A DNA stretch of 64,000 bases from Pseudomonas oryzihabitans (lineage in GTDB: Bacteria > Pseudomonadota > Gammaproteobacteria > Pseudomonadales > Pseudomonadaceae): the NCBI RefSeq assembly GCF_024652905.1, contig NZ_CP102428.1, forward strand, positions 1,004,501-1,068,500, written 5' to 3'. Positions 1 through 10,797 of the stretch are shown here, in pieces. The position numbers were made by a program, and so were the translations under genes. The notes beneath the pieces are model-generated. The model saw only the letters and a program-made list of their open reading frames with translations, did no database searches and was not told the DNA's origin. Positions within the stretch are counted from its first letter, which is position 1; every line of letters begins with the position of its first letter.

Positions 1-47
1 CATGATGATCAGCGCGGTAGCGACCTGCCGAAGCTGTCCTGCGCAGG

Positions 48-287
48 GTGGCAGCAGGAGACGTTAATACGGATCAAGCCCTTACCGCTATTATCGCTTC
101 TAATAGTCTGGAGGCTCGCCGGTATTGGTCGCGACTATTGGCGGAAGCCGCTACGGATCCTGAAAACCGCAACATGCTGGTGGAGATACTCCGGCATGCG
201 AACCTCGCTCCTGCAAGCACTGCAGCTAGGAAAGCCTTGAAACTCGTTGACGCGATTGCCTATGGGCCGCAAATTGAGCTGGAGTAG
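48..287 (+). CDS. Small hypothetical protein upstream of the Avs-like gene
   Basis: A 79-residue open frame with a GTG start. An in-frame stop lies just upstream (18-20), so it does not continue from outside the window in this frame. The product is predicted to be helical and mildly acidic, with no signal peptide or membrane segment. I do not recognise a family. No good ribosome binding site precedes the GTG, so the true start could be further in, or this could be the tail of a gene broken upstream. It lies 80 bases before the large STAND-type gene on the same strand and could be a partner or a remnant. Confidence 0.35.
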   Translation: MAAGDVNTDQALTAIIASNSLEARRYWSRLLAEAATDPENRNMLVEILRHANLAPASTAARKALKLVDAIAYGPQIELE

Positions 288-367
288 TCACAACGGCGCA
301 GCTCCATTATATTTGCAATTATTCAGATCGGCACAGCGAAAAGTATTTTGAATGGAGAGTTATTGGC

Positions 368-3300
368 ATGGCTGAGCTGAAAGAGCAAAGTAATCCATTT
401 TCAACCGGAGGTGGTGGCGTCAATTTTGAAAGCCGGGTACAGGCTTCTTTTTTAGTCGCGCTTTTAGCTGGAACACCTATCCCATGTATGCCTACCAATG
501 CTCGCGTAAAGGAAATTAGCTTCCAAAATAGATATGCCGGAGTGCACACAGATGATTTGCTTGTCTTATCTGAAGACTCAACAAATAACAAGCGATATCT
601 GCGCATTCAAATTAAACATGAAATAACGATAAGCGACTCTGAAGAATCTGTATTTGCCGAAGTGATTTTCGCCGCATGGGAAGACTTCAATAGCCAAGGT
701 TTTAATAAAGATCTTGACTCCATTGCGCTTGTTACTGGTCCATTGACCAAGGTCGATCTTGCCAGCACTATTCCTATACTTGAGTGGGCTCGTCATTCAT
801 CAAGCGCCGATGAATTTATCAGAAAAACAACAGCTAAAGGCTTCACAAGTGCCAAGAAAAAGGAACGACTAAGTGCTTTCCGAACGCAATTAAGTCGGGC
901 AAATGGCGACGCATTGTCAGATAATGAACTCTGGGAGTTCCTGAAGGTATTCCATCTTATTTCATATGACTTGGACCAAGCAGCATCAGTTACAGCTGCA
1001 ATGCTTGGCTCGCTCATTCGTCAACACTCTGACCTACCGCCTTCAGCAGTTTTGGCACAGATTGTAACGACCGCTCAAGAGTTCAACCAGAATGCAGGCA
1101 CAGTAACAGTCGATAACATTCCTGCCGATTTGAGCTCCTTATTCAGGGTCGGAGTAACTCAGTCACTTGAAGCGGATATAGATAAGCTACAGGAGAGAAG
1201 CAGTCATATATATCTAGGTATTTCTAATTCTATATGCGGGAGCCACGTATCCCGAGAGGACATTATTGAAGAGATACGCGATTCTTACGAAGAAGGTGGA
1301 TTCGTATTTGTTACCGGCGAACGGGGCGCCGGTAAATCTGGTGTTGTCAAAGACTATGTACAGTCCAGAGACTCAAGCGTGGCCACCTTCTACGTCAGGG
1401 CCGAGGATTTCGACAAGCCCCATCTTAATGATGTGTTTGCATCTATGGGGATCAGCTCAGACCTACGCCAATTGGCGAGCCATTTCTCTCTCCTTAAAGA
1501 AAAAAACTTGATCATTGAGTCAATTGAAAAAGTATTAGAGCTTAATAATTCGGCAGCCTTTATAGATTTATTGAACTTTATAAGATTGCAAGGGGGGTGG
1601 TGCGTGATTGCGACAGGACGCGATTATGCATACCAGCAGCTGGCATTTAATTACCTTCAACCCTGCGGTTTGAACTTTAAGAGTGTAAAGGTTTCAGGTT
1701 TCACCGGTGGGCAAGTTGAAGAGATCTGTAATAATCTTCCTGAGCTGCGGCAGTTAACGGATAATCCGGCCATCTCGGAGCTTTTGCACAATCCTTTCTT
1801 TATTGATCTTGCTGTTCGCGCGCTTGCAAACGGTGCCGAATTTGAGTCCGGCAATACCGAGGGCGACTTTCGAACAATTGTCTGGAATTCGGTCATTGAA
1901 AGACAATCGGATCGCAGAAATGGAATGCCCGCTCGGCGCAGAGCTACTTTTATTGAGGTGGCAAAGCTGCGAGCAAAACGAATGGTATTTGGTGTGCCTG
2001 ATACAGGTTTTGATCCTGCGGTTGTGGTCAAGCTGGAAGAAGATAATCTTATTCGCCGCGATGCCCGTAGCTCTTTGATAAGCCCTTCTCATGATGTATT
2101 GGAGGACTGGGCTCTCGGCGAATTCATTGAAAACGAATATTTAGCAAATTTAGGGTCGCCGAATAATTTTCTAGCCGCAATCGGAAGTGAGCCCGCAATT
2201 GGTCGCGGCCTCCGCTTGTGGATGAGCTTCAAGCTTGCAGCTGAAGCTGAATTGACAGACCTGATCGAAAGCATACTTACGGCGGATGATGTTGCCAGTC
2301 ACTGGAAAGATGAGGTTGTCGCCACCGTACTGTTAAGCCCTGATCCAGCTAAATTTTTTAATCTACTGCAAGATCAATTATTAGCTAATCAATGCAGTCT
2401 GCTAATTAGATTCAGCTTCATACTGCGTATTGCTTGCCAGCGCCCTGTAGAGGGTGCAGGCGGCTATCCGGATAAAAACTCTGACTCTGGATTCTTGCTG
2501 TTATTAAAACCACATGGTCGCGGGTGGGAGGCGCTGATAAATTTCATATTTTCGAATAGAGCATCTTTGTCTGAGTCAGTTCTCCCTCATGCTGTAGAGG
2601 TGGCTTACTCATGGTCGGACATTATAAGCATCTGGAGCAAGCTGCCCGCGGAGGCGCCTGCAATTGGTGGTATCTGCTTATTTTTACTTGAATGGGTAGA
2701 TTCGTATAAAAGGGAGAAGCTACGAACTAAAGTCCTGAAAGTTCTGCTGAAAGTAGTTCCGGCTATACCTGAAGAGTTCAATTCACTGGCAGAGCGCAAT
2801 GTATTTGCATCAAGGCTGAGGCGCGACCGCCCCAACTATGTGGAGGAGCTTGTCAGGTTGGCTCTTGCTAGCGATTTGGCTCCCATGCTCTGCCGGCATC
2901 GCCCTGATTTCATTATGCGGCTTGCCAGGCATGAATGGCTACAGCCTGAAACAGATGACAATAATCAGGTTGGCTATCGCCCTTTATCCGGAATGGGTTT
3001 GGATGAAACTTACGGCCTGCAAAACGAAAGAGGCTATTTTCCTGCAAGTGGCTTGAGAGGTCCATTTAGGTACCTCCTGCAACATCATCCCCGCAAAGGT
3101 CTAGATTTCATTCTAGACCTTTGCCGCGTTTGCTCCGCGAAGCTCGCAGCGTCTGAGTATGGCCAGAGTCATGAAGATCAACCTCAGGAAATGCCTGATG
3201 AGATGGCGGTTCGATCGGTTCTGATTCGTGCTAACGATGGAACCCAGATAACCCACTTTGCATCACCTCATTTGTGGAAAGGATATCGCGGCCACTCCAC

Positions 3301-5464
3301 TGTGCCTTATTTGCTCCAATGTGCCTTGATGGCCCTGGAGAACTGGTTGGTTGAGTATGTAGAGAATCCACCACCCAAGAATGAACTGTCTTGGATATAT
3401 GAGTACATATTGAAAAGCAGTAACTCAGTGTTAACTACAGCTGTGCTTGCCTCTATAGCCGTGGGGTTTCCTAAGCAGGTCGGCAGTGCCGCGTACCCGT
3501 TGCTGAAATGCACCAGTCTCTACACATTAGATCTAATTCGCCAAGTCGAGGAAAGAGGCAGTCAGGAATTAAATTGGTTTGCGATGCGCTTCGATCCCTG
3601 GTCTAAGTTCTTTGCTGAGGAGAGAAAAAATTCAGCTCTTAAGCCTTGGAGAGGGGAATCCCTAGAGACATTGCTGGTCAAGTTTCAGTTCATTGAAGAG
3701 GATAGATCTGCGGCGTATGAGATTGTTGATGAGCTGAGCGCTCTTGCGGAGGCAGGTGAAAACACCAGCCTGAAGTTCTTGGTTCATCGAGTTGATACAC
3801 GAAATTGGGAGGCTGTTCCGGACGAGGAAAACAATAGGATCATTTTCCAATCCACTCAGACACTTAGCGAAGATCTTCAGCAGGCTCAGCGTGAACACCA
3901 GGAAATTCATGCTCATGACTTTTCCGTCCAGCGACTCTATCTGTGGTCTAGGACGAAATTTGAAAAAAAAGAAACTAGCAGCGCTGGGCTGATTGGAGTC
4001 GACGAAGCTATCGCAGATGCAAAGAAAATCCTGGATCTTCTAATTAAGGGGAAGGTTGGGCGCTTCGAAATAATGGCGCTAGGTGCGGTTACTACTACGG
4101 CTGCAGTTGCAGTGAGAGATTATTTTGACGCCCTGTCAGCTGAGGATGTTAACTGGTGCTTGGAGGTGATAACTCAAGCAATCCACTTGAATTCGGATGA
4201 CAGTAGCGACCATATGGCGGTCGATGCTACCGATTCTAATGGAGCTGCCGCTTGTGCGTACGTTCTTGCGAAGCTCTTGGAAGTTGAGCTTGATCCAGAG
4301 CCGCGCGAAAAGATTTATTATGCAATCGCTACGGCGATAACGCATGTCAACATACATGTATGTGCGTCTGCTGCTAAAGGAGTGCGTGATTACCTCTGGA
4401 ACATGGATGAGAACTTTGCTAACAGCTGCATTAGTGGAGCTTTGGAATTTGCACGCTTCGAGCTTGCATCGCGCTATACGTCCATGCGAGCGGTTCCGAA
4501 TAGCGACCCTGACACACCGCTTAGCGAATGGAGCACGCTCGTTTCCGAGTTTCGAGAGAAGATTCTCGAAGCAGAATTTGAGTTTTCCCCATCTGAAATC
4601 AAACCGGAATCTTACTCCTTGTGGCGCATCCATATTCCGATGCTGATGCTCCCTCTCGGCAATTATCATGATAACCATCTTAGTCTTTTATATAAGACCG
4701 TTGCGATAATATATGAGGAGGAGAATGAACAGGAAAAGCATTCATCCAATCGATCATTTCGATTGGACCATGATGTGTCTGTAGTGATACAGAATTGCTT
4801 GGCTGAGCATGTCATTGCCAGCAAAGGTGATAATTTTAGGCCTATTCGTAATCTCCTGCTGGCAGGATGCCAACAAGCGCCTAGCTTTATATATCTTGTG
4901 AAGCTTCGATTCGATACCGCTATGGAGCAACGGTCTGACTATAAAGGCATGTGGGAACTCTGGTGCTTATTGGAGTCTCAGCTGCATGAAATTGCACTCA
5001 ATGCTGTATATACACCTTACTCAGGTCGTCAGCATGATCTAAATACATTTTTACGCGGCATGCTGTACAGCGATGGCGTGTATCAGAAGCATCCAAACCG
5101 GGTTAAAGCGATAACGACAGGATCGCAATACTTGCTTGAATTTTGTAGGCGTTCAGCATGCAACAGCTTGGTCTTTGAGTCGCTGTGCTCGCTCATGTAT
5201 CAATTCCACGATTTGTTTTTTGACAAGGGCATCCATGTTTTGGCAGCTGAGTACAGGAAGAATTCGAGCATTCTGACGTCTCAAGGAAATTCTGCATATT
5301 GCCTAGAAATGGCAATCGCTAAATTTTTTAAGCTCACTGACAAGCTAAGCCCTAAGATGTACGAAGCTTGTTTAGATCTTCTTACGGGAATAGTAGAGAC
5401 AGGGTCTGCTAGAGCATACTATCTCCGTGAATCACTGATCCGAACACGCAGAATTTCTAGTTAA
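368..5464 (+). CDS. Avs-like STAND NTPase with N-terminal nuclease-like domain (putative anti-phage protein)
   Basis: A 1698-residue protein with an ATG start and GGAGAG ribosome binding site about 8 bases before it. Residues about 1-200 look like a PD-(D/E)xK nuclease of the Cap4/DUF4297 type: E21, then the HTDD motif (D62/D63), then Q81-x-K83 in RIQIKHE. A P-loop NTPase follows, with Walker A GERGAGKS (317-324), a Walker B-like LIIESIE (381-387) and a sensor-like VIATGRD (about 413-419). A winged-helix-like SHDVLEDWALGEF lies near residue 573. The last 1100 or so residues are helical and repeat-like, as in the ligand-sensing half of STAND proteins. Size and order match the antiviral STAND (Avs) proteins, which sense a phage protein, oligomerise and cut DNA. 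The gene is AT-richer than the rest of the window, which suggests transfer. Membership of a named Avs class is inference; the acidic residue in the Walker B position is atypical. Confidence 0.72.
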   Translation: MAELKEQSNPFSTGGGGVNFESRVQASFLVALLAGTPIPCMPTNARVKEISFQNRYAGVHTDDLLVLSEDSTNNKRYLRIQIKHEITISDSEESVFAEVIFAAWEDFNSQGFNKDLDSIALVTGPLTKVDLASTIPILEWARHSSSADEFIRKTTAKGFTSAKKKERLSAFRTQLSRANGDALSDNELWEFLKVFHLISYDLDQAASVTAAMLGSLIRQHSDLPPSAVLAQIVTTAQEFNQNAGTVTVDNIPADLSSLFRVGVTQSLEADIDKLQERSSHIYLGISNSICGSHVSREDIIEEIRDSYEEGGFVFVTGERGAGKSGVVKDYVQSRDSSVATFYVRAEDFDKPHLNDVFASMGISSDLRQLASHFSLLKEKNLIIESIEKVLELNNSAAFIDLLNFIRLQGGWCVIATGRDYAYQQLAFNYLQPCGLNFKSVKVSGFTGGQVEEICNNLPELRQLTDNPAISELLHNPFFIDLAVRALANGAEFESGNTEGDFRTIVWNSVIERQSDRRNGMPARRRATFIEVAKLRAKRMVFGVPDTGFDPAVVVKLEEDNLIRRDARSSLISPSHDVLEDWALGEFIENEYLANLGSPNNFLAAIGSEPAIGRGLRLWMSFKLAAEAELTDLIESILTADDVASHWKDEVVATVLLSPDPAKFFNLLQDQLLANQCSLLIRFSFILRIACQRPVEGAGGYPDKNSDSGFLLLLKPHGRGWEALINFIFSNRASLSESVLPHAVEVAYSWSDIISIWSKLPAEAPAIGGICLFLLEWVDSYKREKLRTKVLKVLLKVVPAIPEEFNSLAERNVFASRLRRDRPNYVEELVRLALASDLAPMLCRHRPDFIMRLARHEWLQPETDDNNQVGYRPLSGMGLDETYGLQNERGYFPASGLRGPFRYLLQHHPRKGLDFILDLCRVCSAKLAASEYGQSHEDQPQEMPDEMAVRSVLIRANDGTQITHFASPHLWKGYRGHSTVPYLLQCALMALENWLVEYVENPPPKNELSWIYEYILKSSNSVLTTAVLASIAVGFPKQVGSAAYPLLKCTSLYTLDLIRQVEERGSQELNWFAMRFDPWSKFFAEERKNSALKPWRGESLETLLVKFQFIEEDRSAAYEIVDELSALAEAGENTSLKFLVHRVDTRNWEAVPDEENNRIIFQSTQTLSEDLQQAQREHQEIHAHDFSVQRLYLWSRTKFEKKETSSAGLIGVDEAIADAKKILDLLIKGKVGRFEIMALGAVTTTAAVAVRDYFDALSAEDVNWCLEVITQAIHLNSDDSSDHMAVDATDSNGAAACAYVLAKLLEVELDPEPREKIYYAIATAITHVNIHVCASAAKGVRDYLWNMDENFANSCISGALEFARFELASRYTSMRAVPNSDPDTPLSEWSTLVSEFREKILEAEFEFSPSEIKPESYSLWRIHIPMLMLPLGNYHDNHLSLLYKTVAIIYEEENEQEKHSSNRSFRLDHDVSVVIQNCLAEHVIASKGDNFRPIRNLLLAGCQQAPSFIYLVKLRFDTAMEQRSDYKGMWELWCLLESQLHEIALNAVYTPYSGRQHDLNTFLRGMLYSDGVYQKHPNRVKAITTGSQYLLEFCRRSACNSLVFESLCSLMYQFHDLFFDKGIHVLAAEYRKNSSILTSQGNSAYCLEMAIAKFFKLTDKLSPKMYEACLDLLTGIVETGSARAYYLRESLIRTRRISS

Positions 5465-5690
5465 TTTCCGCTGATTGATGATTGGTGCGTAGATCTAGGT
5501 CTCCCTAAACGTCCACTTTTAGCCTTGCTCTGTCGGTTACGTTTAGTTGGACATAGCTGGGGTGAGTAAAAGTACTGGCTAAGGCTAGTACCTGCGCGCG
5601 ACCAAGCCATATGTAACTCCGCGGCTAAATATTGGCAGGTAGCAATTACTCGCTTCACTTCTGCGGCGACCAGTTGCCTACCTATTTCAA
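5465..5690. other. Intergenic stretch with no recognisable gene
   Basis: The stretch between the Avs-like gene and the insertion-sequence-like repeats. A short open frame on the minus strand (5461-5658) has no recognisable product. I see no RNA gene or clear terminator here. Confidence 0.4.
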
Positions 5691-5816
5691 GGGTGGGTCA
5701 GGATCGTTGGTGTCTTGGATCACAACTACTGGAATGGCTGGACAGAACCTCCAGCGCGGGTGGGTCACAATAACTGGAATCGAAGGGCAGCATCACTGGA
5801 ATACACACCCGGGGTC
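5691..5816. repeat. Degenerate tandem repeats resembling an IS21-type element end
   Basis: GGGTGGGTCA appears at 5691-5700 and again at 5758-5767, the second time running into CACAATAACTGGAAT. A related CACAACTACTGGAAT lies at 5720-5734, and CATCACTGGAAT with GGGGTCA at 5790-5816. Spaced units of the GGTGGGTCA/TGGAAT kind occur at the ends of some IS21-family elements in Pseudomonas (recalled, not checked). No transposase gene is present, so this would be a relic marking the border of the AT-rich island. Confidence 0.4.
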
Positions 5817-5856
5817 AAAGCGCCTCTGGCCCCGAGGTCGTATCTAGCACCGCCGG

Positions 5857-6723
5857 CTACCCCAGCAACTCCTCCAAGATACTCAACCTGAACTGCCGCT
5901 GCAGCGTCACCGCATAGAAGCGTTCGGCGATCTCCGGCACCTCGGCGTAGAGCTGCAGGGCGCCGCTGCGCAGTTCATCCTGCACCACTACGGCGGGCAG
6001 CAGGGCCATGTCGCCGGAGTCGCGGGCGAGCAGGCGCAGCAGGGCCATGTCGTCAACTTCGGCGCAGATGCGCGGCGTCAGTCCCTGGCCGCTGCAATAG
6101 ACCTCGAACTGGCTGCGCACGTCGCTGCTGCGCCCGGGCACGATCAGGCGGGCCTGTTGCAGGTCGCGGTGGAGATCGAAGGGGCGGCGGTCCTGGCGTG
6201 GTGGACCGATCAGGCACACCGGCTGGCGATGGAGCAGGCGGCACTGCCAGGTGCGCTGGCTGTCGGCGCTCACCGCCTGGTTGGTCAGCACCACGTCGAG
6301 CTTGTGCAGGGCCAGGCGCTCGAGCAATTCGTCCACGCTGCCGGATTCCAGGGTGAGCACCAGGTCTTCCCGGCCAAGGAAGGGGCGCAGCAGGTTTTCC
6401 TGGAAGTTGCGCGACAGGGTCGCGACGGAGCCGATGCGCAGCCTCTGGTTCGCCTCCTGGGCGTTCTGCAGGGTGTTCTGCAACTCGCTTCCCAGGGCGA
6501 AGATGGTTTCGGCATAGTCCAGCACCAGCTGTCCGGCTTCGGTCAGCCGCAGGCTGCGTCCGGAGCGGAGGAACAGGGGATGGCCGAGCTGGTCTTCCAG
6601 CACGCGGATCTGGGTGGAGAGGGCGGATTGGGAGACATGCAGCGCCTCGGCGGCGCGGGTGAGATTGCCTTCCTTGGCCACGGCCCAGAAGTAGTGCAGG
6701 TGATGGAAATTGAGGCGACGCAT
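5857..6723 (-). CDS. LysR-family regulator, divergent from dabBA
   Basis: A 288-residue LysR-type transcriptional regulator. The N-terminal winged helix is clear (residues 3-62, with NFHHLHYFWAVAKEGNLTRA and the SQSALSTQIRVLE recognition helix). The effector domain starts near residue 90. The NFHHLxYFW opening is typical of the NhaR-like LysR subgroup. It is transcribed away from the dabB-dabA pair across a 100-base AT-rich gap, the usual layout of a LysR regulator and its target, so control of bicarbonate uptake is the likely role (inference). The inducer cannot be told from the sequence. Confidence 0.85.
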   Translation of the reverse strand: MRRLNFHHLHYFWAVAKEGNLTRAAEALHVSQSALSTQIRVLEDQLGHPLFLRSGRSLRLTEAGQLVLDYAETIFALGSELQNTLQNAQEANQRLRIGSVATLSRNFQENLLRPFLGREDLVLTLESGSVDELLERLALHKLDVVLTNQAVSADSQRTWQCRLLHRQPVCLIGPPRQDRRPFDLHRDLQQARLIVPGRSSDVRSQFEVYCSGQGLTPRICAEVDDMALLRLLARDSGDMALLPAVVVQDELRSGALQLYAEVPEIAERFYAVTLQRQFRLSILEELLG

Positions 6724-6826
6724 GCTTCGTTCTTCAAAAGTGAACGTTAGGTTCTGATCAATCTATTTTAAATAATTCTTACACATCCTGAAACTGGTGC
6801 CCTCTGGTGTTCAAGGAGTGTGCACG
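6724..6826. promoter_or_regulatory. Divergent LysR/dabB promoter region
   Basis: A short AT-rich gap between divergent genes, with the run CTATTTTAAATAATTCTTAC around 6760-6780 standing out from GC-rich flanks. It should hold both promoters and the LysR binding site, but I could not settle on exact boxes. AAGGAG at 6813-6818 is the ribosome binding site that fixes the dabB start. Confidence 0.45.
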
Positions 6827-8353
6827 ATGTCTAGCCCGCTGTTTCCCCTGGCTCCGCTGTTGCCCTGGGTCTATGCCCTGGCGCTGTTGCCGGCGGCCTT
6901 TCTCGCTTCACCTGGCCAATTCTGGCGGCCTGCTCGTGTCGCCGGCTATCTGGGCGTCTTGCTGGTTCTTGCCACATGGTTACAGGCGGTCTTCGAAACC
7001 CAGCACCCCGACCGCCTCGGCCTGGCGATGGCCGGACTCGTCAGCCTGCTGGCGCTGGTGATCATTGAGTACTCCCAACGCTATCTGGAAGGAGAGCCAG
7101 GACAGCGGCGCTATGTGCTCGCCCTGCTGGCCACCCTGGCGGCGGTGGCCACGGTGGTCACCAGCGGCAACCTCTTGCTGCTGGCGGGTGCCTGGATCCT
7201 GTCCAGCCTGTGCCTGCACCAGCTGTTGACCTTCTACCGCGAGCGCCCCCAGGCCGTGGTGGCGGCCCACAAGAAATTCATCGCCAGCCGCCTGGCCGAT
7301 GTCAGCCTGCTGCTGGCGATCCTGCTATTGGTACGGGCGGGCGGTAGCAGCCAGCTCTCACTGATCCTCGCCGCCGTGGAGGCCCAGGTGCAGGCGGGTG
7401 GTCTGCTCGGCTGGGAGCTGCAAGGCGCGGCGCTGCTGCTGGCGCTGACGGTGATCCTCAAGTCGGCGCAATTGCCGGTGCATGGCTGGCTGATCCAGGT
7501 GATGGAGGCCCCCACGCCGGTTTCGGCCCTGCTGCATGCCGGGGTGGTCAATCTCGGCGGCTTCGTGCTGCTGCGCTTCGCTCCGCTGTTTTCCGCCGCC
7601 GTACCGGCGCAGAGCCTGCTGGTGCTGGTGGGCGGCCTGACCGCGGTCCTCGCGGCCCTGGTGATGATGACCCGCATCAGCATCAAGGTCCGCCTGGCCT
7701 GGTCGACCTGCGCGCAGATGGGCCTGATGCTGCTGGAATGCGGGCTGGGGCTGTACGAACTGGCGCTGGTGCACCTGCTGGCCCATTCGCTGTACAAGGC
7801 CCATGCCTTCCTGGCCGCCGGCGAGACGGTGGCCCATGCCCGGCAACAGGCGCTGCAACCCCAGGCACCTGCGCTCGACCTGGCCGGCCTGCTGCGCGCG
7901 CTGCTGGTGGCCGCCCTGATGCTGATCCTGCTGCAAGGGCTCTGGGCCTGGCTGCTGCCCGGCCATGAGCTGCCTCTGGTGGCCCTGACGCTGCTGGCGA
8001 TCGGCTTGGCGCCCTGGTGCCTGCGCCGCGGCCAGTGGGCGCACGGACTGCTGATGTTCGGCCTGCTGCTGGGCGCCTATCTGCTGTGGCATCAGGCGGC
8101 CGGCTGGATCCTCGACCAGCACCTCGCCGAGGCGCCGCTGCCGCTGGCCCTGCTGGCGATGGGCCTGCTGGTCGGTCTCTACCTGCTGCAGGGCCTGCTG
8201 CTGGCTCGGCCGCGCGGCGCTCTGGCGCAACGCCTCTACCCGCTGGCCTTTGCCGGCTTCTACCTGGACGAGCACTTCACCCGCCTGACCTTCCGCCTCT
8301 GGCCGGCGCATGCGCCCCAGCCCCTGAGCGCCACCCTTGGAGACCACTCATGA
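6827..8353 (+). CDS. dabB: DabB, proton-conducting subunit of the DAB bicarbonate pump
   Basis: A 508-residue, almost wholly membrane-embedded protein of the NuoL/MrpA-like proton-conducting family. KSAQLPVHGWL followed by PTPVSALLHAGVVN is the family's core motif (genomic about 7458-7555). There is no other Nuo or Mrp gene nearby; its partner is the DabA gene that overlaps its stop codon by an ATGA. In the DAB system this subunit is thought to supply proton energy for one-way hydration of CO2 to bicarbonate by DabA. I chose the ATG at 6827 because AAGGAG lies 8 bases before it; an upstream in-frame start at 6797 lacks such a site. Confidence 0.88.
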   Translation: MSSPLFPLAPLLPWVYALALLPAAFLASPGQFWRPARVAGYLGVLLVLATWLQAVFETQHPDRLGLAMAGLVSLLALVIIEYSQRYLEGEPGQRRYVLALLATLAAVATVVTSGNLLLLAGAWILSSLCLHQLLTFYRERPQAVVAAHKKFIASRLADVSLLLAILLLVRAGGSSQLSLILAAVEAQVQAGGLLGWELQGAALLLALTVILKSAQLPVHGWLIQVMEAPTPVSALLHAGVVNLGGFVLLRFAPLFSAAVPAQSLLVLVGGLTAVLAALVMMTRISIKVRLAWSTCAQMGLMLLECGLGLYELALVHLLAHSLYKAHAFLAAGETVAHARQQALQPQAPALDLAGLLRALLVAALMLILLQGLWAWLLPGHELPLVALTLLAIGLAPWCLRRGQWAHGLLMFGLLLGAYLLWHQAAGWILDQHLAEAPLPLALLAMGLLVGLYLLQGLLLARPRGALAQRLYPLAFAGFYLDEHFTRLTFRLWPAHAPQPLSATLGDHS

Positions 8354-10797
8354 CTGCCTTCGAAGCGCTTCCCAGCCTCAAGCACAAGGTTCTGCACGAG
8401 GCCGCCCGGCAGGCCTGTGCGCGCATCGCACCGACCTGGCCGCTGGATCGCATGATCGCCGTCAGCCCCCTGTGGGAGCGGCGTGATCAGGCCTGGCAGA
8501 CCGTCGCCGCGCAACTCTGGCAACGCGCCGGCAGCCGCCTGACCCTGGACACCGTCGACTATCGCCAGGCCTGGCAGGACGGCCGCATCGCCGAGCGCCA
8601 TCTGCAGCAGGCGCTGGCCGAGCAGGGGGCGTCCTGCACGCCGGTACGGCTGCTGGAGGTACTAAACGCCCCTACGGAGGTCGGCCAGGGGCTGCCGCTG
8701 CTGGAAGACCTGGCGGAGCCAGGCGTGCCGCTTCCGGGCTGGCCGGCGCTGATCACCCAGCAGATCGGCCAGAGTTGCGCGGCCTGGTTCGATCACGAAC
8801 AGGCCGATTGGCGGCCGGCGGACAGCGCCGGGCTGTACCAGGCCTGGCGCGCCAGTCTGTTGGCCGACCGGGGTCTGAGCGTGCTCAGCGCCTGTCGCGA
8901 CCTGCCCCCGCGCATTGCCGAGTTGCCAATGCAACCCGAGGCGGCCCTGGAGGCGGCGGTCGAGCAGCTGGGTCTACCGGCGGAAGACTGGGCCCTCTGG
9001 TTCGACTGCCTGCTGTTGCGCAACCTGGGCTGGGCCTCCTGGTGCGCCTATCGGCGCTGGCAGGCCCGGTTGCAGGGCGAGGACGACCAGACGCTGCTGG
9101 AGCTGCTGGCCATCCGCGCGGCCTGGGAGTGGCTGGTGGATGATCGCCGGCGCGATGCCGGGAGCCGCTGGCACAGCTGGCGGGCGGCCTGGCAGGAGCG
9201 CTCGCAGCAGGCGCCCTCGGCCAATTGGCGGGCGCTGCAGCTGTGGCAGCGCGCCGACGAACTGGCCTGGCAGGAGCAACTGCAGCGGGCCCTGTGCCAG
9301 AGCACTCCCGCCGCCGCACCCACGGCACCGCTGGCCAAGCTGTTCTTCTGCATCGACGTGCGTTCCGAGCCGCTCAGACGCGCCCTGGAGCAAACGTGCC
9401 CGGAGCTGGAGACCGGCGGTTTCGCCGGCTTCTTCGGCCTGCCCATCGCCTATACCCCGCTGGGTACCCAGGCCACGCGCCCGCAATTGCCGGGCCTGCT
9501 CGCGCCGCAGCTGCAGGTGAGCGACGGCAGTGGCGATGCCGAACGGGATCGGCAACTGGCAGAGCTGCGTCAGGAGCGCCTGGCCCGTCAGGGTCGCTGG
9601 CGGCTGTTCGAGCGGTTGCCGGCCTCGACCTTCACCCTGGTCGAGAGCGTGGGGCTGGGCTATGCCGGGGCGCTGTTGGGGCGGACCTATGGCCTGGCCG
9701 GTGGCGCGCCGTCGCCAGAACTCAGTGCCTGGCGCCGCCACGAGCGGCAGCAGCTGCAACCACGGCTGCCGGCCCTGTCGCGGCTCCAGCAGGTCGACCT
9801 GGCCGAGCGCATCCTCAAGGCCATGGGGCTCAGCGGACAACTGCCGCCTCTGTTGGTTTTGGTCGGCCATGGCAGCCAGAGCGCCAACAATCCTCAGGCG
9901 GCAGGCCTGGACTGCGGCGCCTGCTGTGGTCAGAGCGGCGAGATCAATGCGCGACTGCTGGCAGGCCTGCTCAACGATCCCGAGGTGCGCATCGGGCTAC
10001 GGGTGCGCGGCCTCGACCTGCCGCCGCACTGCCAGGTACTGGCCGGGCTGCACAACACCACGACGGATGAGGTGCAGGTCTTTGGTCATGCGGCGCTTCC
10101 TGCTGCGCTCCAGCCCAGCTGGCAACGCCTGCGGGCAGCCCTGGACGGAGCGAGCGCCGAGGTGCGTCGGCAACGGGCCAGCACCCTGGGCCTTGCGCCG
10201 CTGCAGGAGCAGCCGGCCAAGTTGCTCGGACGGCTGCGGCGGCGCGCCCGCGACTGGGCGCAGACCCGGCCGGAATGGGGACTGGCCGGCAACGCCGCCT
10301 TCATCGCCGCGCCGCGGGCACGCACCCGCGCGGTGGATCTGCAGGGCCGCGCCTTCCTGCACGACTACGACTGGCGCCAGGACGCAGGGGGCAAGGTACT
10401 GGAGCTGATCATGACCGCACCCATGGTGGTGGCCCACTGGATCAACCTGCAGTACTTCACCTCGACCACCGACAACCTGCGCTTCGGCAGTGGCAACAAG
10501 CTGCTGCACAACGTGGTGGGTGGCCATATCGGGGTGTTCGAGGGCAACGGCGGCGACCTGCGCATCGGCCTGGCGCGCCAGTCGCTGCACGACGGTCAGC
10601 AGTGGATGCATCGTCCGCTACGGCTGCACGTGGTGATCGAGGCGCCGCGCGCCATGATCGATCAGGTGATCGCCAACCATGCCGTAGTACGCGATCTGGT
10701 GCGCAATGGCTGGCTGCACCTGTTGCGCTTGGATGGCCAGCCGGCCTGCCTCGAGCTGCGTACGGCGGGAGGGTGGCGGCCGTTACCGGAGGTCTGA
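8350..10797 (+). CDS. dabA: DabA (DUF2309), zinc-dependent carbonic-anhydrase-like subunit
   Basis: An 815-residue cytoplasmic protein of the DUF2309/UPF0753 family, the catalytic half of the DAB inorganic-carbon accumulation complex. The four expected zinc ligands are visible: C334 and D336 in FFCIDVRSE, H507 in LVGHGS and C522 in LDCGACCG. Their spacing is the same as C351/D353/H524/C539 of Halothiobacillus DabA2, shifted by 17. The start ATG at 8350 overlaps the dabB stop, so the two are translationally coupled. An open frame extends upstream in this phase to 8017, but it lies inside dabB and is not part of the gene. In a heterotroph the pump probably feeds carboxylases when CO2 is low (inference). 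Confidence 0.92.
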   Translation: MTAFEALPSLKHKVLHEAARQACARIAPTWPLDRMIAVSPLWERRDQAWQTVAAQLWQRAGSRLTLDTVDYRQAWQDGRIAERHLQQALAEQGASCTPVRLLEVLNAPTEVGQGLPLLEDLAEPGVPLPGWPALITQQIGQSCAAWFDHEQADWRPADSAGLYQAWRASLLADRGLSVLSACRDLPPRIAELPMQPEAALEAAVEQLGLPAEDWALWFDCLLLRNLGWASWCAYRRWQARLQGEDDQTLLELLAIRAAWEWLVDDRRRDAGSRWHSWRAAWQERSQQAPSANWRALQLWQRADELAWQEQLQRALCQSTPAAAPTAPLAKLFFCIDVRSEPLRRALEQTCPELETGGFAGFFGLPIAYTPLGTQATRPQLPGLLAPQLQVSDGSGDAERDRQLAELRQERLARQGRWRLFERLPASTFTLVESVGLGYAGALLGRTYGLAGGAPSPELSAWRRHERQQLQPRLPALSRLQQVDLAERILKAMGLSGQLPPLLVLVGHGSQSANNPQAAGLDCGACCGQSGEINARLLAGLLNDPEVRIGLRVRGLDLPPHCQVLAGLHNTTTDEVQVFGHAALPAALQPSWQRLRAALDGASAEVRRQRASTLGLAPLQEQPAKLLGRLRRRARDWAQTRPEWGLAGNAAFIAAPRARTRAVDLQGRAFLHDYDWRQDAGGKVLELIMTAPMVVAHWINLQYFTSTTDNLRFGSGNKLLHNVVGGHIGVFEGNGGDLRIGLARQSLHDGQQWMHRPLRLHVVIEAPRAMIDQVIANHAVVRDLVRNGWLHLLRLDGQPACLELRTAGGWRPLPEV

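Follow-up and report, generated by a model that had tools for sequence, protein, structure and literature searches.

Avs4 (AVAST type 4; PADLOC PDLC02169, NCBIfam NF041815, PDB 8dgf) combines a STAND NTPase with a helical-repeat arm and has an Mrr-like domain of its own at the N-terminus. Avs3 and Avs4 are tetramers, Avs4 assembling into this form on activation, and diverse N-terminal domains on Avs proteins have already been reported. Nucleases of the Cap4, LmuA and HerA-DUF4297 types work with other partners and triggers. Here we describe a gene in a 64,000-nucleotide stretch of Pseudomonas oryzihabitans DNA (the window) that lies at 368..5464 on the forward strand, as do the domains of its protein and the end of the MFS gene given by coordinates below, and encodes a protein of 1,698 amino acids. 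Its open frame and its family and PDB matches mark it as an Avs4-like STAND receptor. The protein shares the NTPase and arm with Avs4, while its N-terminal domain is not homologous to that of Avs4; from sequence and predicted structure, it is probably an effector-swapped receptor in which a Cap4/LmuA/Avs3-type head is joined to a STAND NTPase and an Avs4-type arm. The architecture itself is near certain.

An Avs4-type NTPase and sensor arm

Family models, a profile search of PDB chains, hhalign and the predicted structure all show the NTPase and arm to be collinear with Avs4 up to the C-terminus. The Avs4 profile match opens at profile position 166, equivalent to residue 271, and the hhalign alignment of the N-terminal stretch with Avs4 is forced, gappy and unconvincing. 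The arm, an Avs4-type helical-repeat sensor, spans residues 601–1698 (2168..5461). A first-pass annotation of this DNA had raised the possibility of a new sensor class, a proposal we rejected since in the same four comparisons the match to Avs4 extends as far as the C-terminus. The only family models matched by the protein are defence models. No Avs3 model (Avs3, PDB 8dgc) appeared among the families at E<=1, and at E<=10 the PDB chains found with the family profile included Avs4 but no Avs3. Sensor and NTPase are Avs4-like, judging from alignment and modelling, and the protein most likely works like Avs4. PDB entry 8dgf bears the title 'Avs4 bound to phage PhiV-1 portal'; because the arm resembles that of Avs4 in sequence and predicted structure, the phage portal is the first trigger candidate and, by analogy, our best guess.

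The frame starts with ATG and runs for 1,698 codons with zero internal stops, and the gene is single copy in its own genome (100% match). To follow conservation we aligned the protein with 120 homologues (the best 120 of 311 at E<=1e-3), giving 121 rows. The motifs NFES (from residue 19), HTDD (60), QIK (81), GERGAGKS (317), IESIE (383) and SHDVLEDW (574) could be read off the protein, so that every motif residue named in the first-pass annotation lies where it had been placed, and these residues are conserved among the homologues. The STAND NTPase and winged-helix region covers residues 290–600 (1235..2167), as located by family matches and the Avs4 alignment, which bears out the earlier call of an Avs-type STAND NTPase. 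Within its P-loop (residues 317–324, 1316..1339), G317, G320, G322, K323 and S324 are invariant in 120 of the 121 rows, with a gap in the other one. The order effector, P-loop NTPase, winged helix, repeat sensor is present, the winged helix being known from the HDVLEDW motif alone (SHDVLEDW, conserved, residues 574–581, 2087..2110). The Walker B region, IESIE (residues 383–387, 1514..1528), has glutamate in place of the aspartate of Avs4, which reads DSAE in E. coli. It had been called atypical, and the replacement is real; however, E384 occupies 120 rows (one gap), a lineage-wide change. Being conservative and lineage-wide, it is weak evidence against Avs/STAND membership.

An orthologue in P. 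alcaligenes MRY13-0052 (L002) is 90% identical in amino acids. The pairwise ratio of non-synonymous to synonymous substitution rates (dN/dS) is 0.19 overall and 0.16–0.23 across five segments, consistent with purifying selection, and so the gene is constrained along its length. The top homologue among the matches listed, from a Pseudomonas sp. ATCC 13867 record, is 94% identical.

The probable nuclease head and its exchange between receptors

Residues 1–270 (368..1177) form the head, whose fold is predicted with a mean pLDDT (predicted local distance difference test) of 90.5 and resembles Avs3, LmuA and Cap4. Structural comparisons were made with VIA-align 2 alone, and a family missing from its lists is not thereby excluded. 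The putative active-site residues are E21 (428..430), D62/D63 (551..556) and the QxK of Q81-I82-K83 (608..616). E21 is glutamate in 117 of 121 rows (gap in 4), D62 is aspartate in 117 (glutamate in 1, gap in 3), and D63, Q81 and K83 are invariant in 118 (gap in 3). The protein therefore shows the Cap4/DUF4297-type set, with the fold in the model and the conserved E, D and QxK in the sequence, and a nuclease effector at the N-terminus is likely. The PD-(D/E)xK N-terminus of this type proposed by the first-pass annotation is upheld by these residues, the fold and the structural matches. The protein differs from Cap4 (CBASS), LmuA (Lamassu) and HerA-DUF4297-type nucleases in its STAND sensor. We also considered Avs4's own nuclease as the N-terminus and rejected it, as the Avs4 profile starts only at residue 271 and the head matches Avs3, LmuA and Cap4. 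The PADLOC phage-defence candidate PDC-M54A shows a weak N-terminal likeness (41 bits, residues 12–332) with nothing reported past residue 332; it also matches relatives carrying a related head. A literature search returned no paper pairing Avs4 with Cap4, though two papers, one of 2022 and one of 2024 on NLR-like diversification, lay outside its coverage.

When 32 sequences of NTPase plus arm were placed on a tree (1,353 columns, root chosen by us), one clade (100) united the window family (support 100), the group of Avs4 and Calothrix (100) and that of Hymenobacter and Haliscomenobacter (94). The head of the Hymenobacter relative is related and shows E, D, D, Q and K, and the Haliscomenobacter relative has a trypsin-like head instead (Trypsin_2, 26.8 bits, just below the 27.6 cut-off). 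The head appears to be exchangeable.

Some of these relatives have settings of their own. On the Haliscomenobacter plasmid (L035:2763-10230), the Avs4-type arm with its trypsin-like head comes directly after a gene matching the LmuA, RTasMBL and Avs1a models, and the locus also has a CBASS cyclase and a 2TM effector. This arrangement recalls the nuclease-protease pairs described in PMC12799240, with AVAST, Lamassu, Hachiman and DRT named, and the locus is possibly such a pair on an Avs4-like receptor. Calothrix encodes an Avs4-type protein (L036:3002-8137, 1,422 bits) without a nuclease head, and none of the heads compared matched the separate 232-amino-acid gene just upstream significantly. 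On an Azospirillum plasmid (L034:6007-15849), a distant relative whose head is related is followed by a second very large gene on the same strand, for which PADLOC gave no match.

Searching genome contigs returned one relative, that of P. alcaligenes L002. The architecture occurred in 1 of 13 genomes of the genus sample, its own, and matches were found in 13 of 390 genomes of the order sample, 13 of 398 of the phylum sample and 3 of 369 of the class sample. Of the order's 13, one is the window's genome and another has a full-length relative (G695, 48%). Four have Avs4-type arms without a match to the head, three carry the head on a frame of about 1,180 amino acids, in two the head is broken or partial, and the last two encode distant proteins of comparable length. 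The 48% relative (L093:12679-18640) lies amid short genes of one strand, a setting that also has two macro-domain proteins and a pair of 145-nucleotide repeats 96% alike, and that is perhaps an integron-like cassette array. Ten stretches of viral contigs fitted a pattern and none encodes a relative; phage records gave one weak partial match (22.5% over 26%), and none of the 62 plasmid records with a match covers 80% of the query.

The family of about 1,180 amino acids is distinct. Its three intact members (L098:7315-10857, L099:7922-11455 and L100:5815-9354; 1,177–1,180 amino acids) have heads that align with residues 2–277 of the window protein at 39% identity over 276 columns; other members are partial (L039), broken (L102) or a fragment (L103). 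The rest of the three intact proteins was related by hhalign neither to the window protein nor to Avs4, so that, compared with the window protein, the family has a related head, an unrelated arm and no conserved P-loop. Searching with the L098 member gave 2,517 proteins at E<=1e-3, a number that may include STAND proteins sharing the head alone, since the search scored candidates as long as 1.75 times the query. The 120 members listed measure 1,173–1,196 amino acids and are at least 77% identical, with named sources including Microbulbifer, Aliidiomarina, Alloalcanivorax, Lonsdalea, Chlorobium, Acidithiobacillus and planctomycete records. E21, D62 and K83 are invariant in all 120; a Walker A pattern is missing from 116, and the remaining four show it at three positions, none of them conserved. 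Pfam, PADLOC and NCBIfam gave no match for the two members tested by each. One of the three intact members (L099) directly follows the PADLOC phage-defence candidate PDC-S19 (564 bits), and no PADLOC match was found for the other neighbours tested (one of L098, one of L100 and a second of L099). An ATP switch is thought central to STAND immunity. We suggest, tentatively, that the head may be a mobile module common to the window protein and this P-loop-less family, which would then be a nuclease-plus-sensor immune receptor working without that switch.

The insert and its genomic setting

The gene lies in a foreign AT-rich insert with outer limits at 29..5807. Its guanine-plus-cytosine content is 46.8%, against 66.2% in the rest of the window and 61–72% in the upstream DNA back to position 1 of L003; this contrast and comparison with the same site in genus relatives agree with the AT-rich island recognised earlier. 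Window 219–5748 matches P. alcaligenes L002 at 91%, which points to a common unit that is about 5.5 kb long and has a single large gene. At the same site, three genus relatives (L070, L071, L072) have a metabolic cassette as well as an intact MFS transporter gene (457–459 amino acids); for L073 and L074, two further ones, the alignment picks up at -1278, coming from the side of the U32 peptidase, and at 5852–5855. Here the MFS gene is broken at about base 28, and the relatives' sequence picks up again at 5807–5850. The truncated gene starts at L003:18494 (L003:18494-19500), ends at 2..67 of the window and encodes about 357 amino acids, its frame across the window edge being read by eye. No repeats of note bound the insert in window 1–400, and 5400–6000 holds one short palindrome. 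At 5715–5800 the unit ends in a stretch, GGATCACAACTACTGGAATGGCTGGACA, common to the unit's far end in L002 and half repeated further on, which looks like an insertion-sequence end.

Pfam identified LysR, Proton_antipo (DabB-like), DabA and NUDIX genes downstream, and MscS, peptidase U32 and the cut MFS gene upstream. The Proton_antipo and DabA genes (6797–10797) form an inorganic-carbon transporter pair adjoining the insert. The expectation that homologues would sit among defence genes is borne out in part: distant relatives adjoin such genes, but the neighbours tested here are metabolic or transport genes, and the one neighbour tested of the L002 orthologue gave no PADLOC match.

Proposed mechanism, alternatives and meaning

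As an effector-swapped Avs4-like receptor, the protein would be off at rest. Upon infection, the arm would bind a conserved fold in a structural protein of the phage, with the portal as the likeliest, and ATP-bound receptors would then oligomerise; clustering would turn on double-stranded DNA cutting by the heads, stopping phage and host alike. The gene would have travelled alone, in a unit of about 5.5 kb.

Several results weigh against this explanation. Identity to E. coli Avs4 is 23% in the NTPase, 26% over residues 601–1060, 16% over 1061–1360 and 13% over 1361–1698, and the NCBIfam Avs4 equivalog model NF041815 scores 572.5 bits against a cut-off of 1,500 (442, 583 and 648 bits in three relatives). 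With this score and without Avs4's own N-terminal domain, the protein is not an Avs4 equivalog by the strict test. Pfam found no nuclease family in residues 1–291, CSTF1_dimer (E 0.15) being the sole entry at E<=10, and a head profile gave nothing significant against PDB sequences (best E 1.1, a designed cage); the nuclease call therefore draws on the predicted fold and the conserved residues. None of the seven neighbours tested in this genome is a defence gene.

The low identity of the two distal arm segments favours an alternative in which the same machine answers to another trigger, the Avs4-type arm having drifted to terminase, capsid, a Ksap1-like or another phage protein. Distinct ligands can trigger Avs5 clades, according to PMC12931631, and we rate this alternative as unlikely, though not negligible. 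The missed Avs4 cut-off, together with a single-sequence PDB search whose significant alignment reaches only residue 1290, would suit a sensor class without kinship to known Avs arms; yet the Avs4 match runs to the C-terminus and the predicted-structure comparison largely refutes this idea, which we consider very improbable. Slighter still is the chance of a decayed or non-defence passenger. The lone gene amid ordinary genes, the cut MFS gene and the rarity of the architecture in the genus speak for it, but the frame is intact, the motifs are invariant, selection is purifying and the matches are to defence models only. Taken globally, the first-pass observation is confirmed and its interpretation holds in part, without the new sensor class.

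The novelty of the window receptor is modest, and its P-loop-less relatives merit separate attention. If the effector-swapped reading is true, one phage-sensing arm carries at least three heads, namely that of E. coli Avs4, the Cap4-like head and the trypsin-like head of Haliscomenobacter. The portal trigger of the 1,698-amino-acid protein would be directly testable, and the protein, a head-swap already made in nature, would help to learn whether an Avs4 arm can drive any nuclease that works by clustering. If the P-loop-less family is antiviral, it would raise the question of whether an NTPase switch is necessary.
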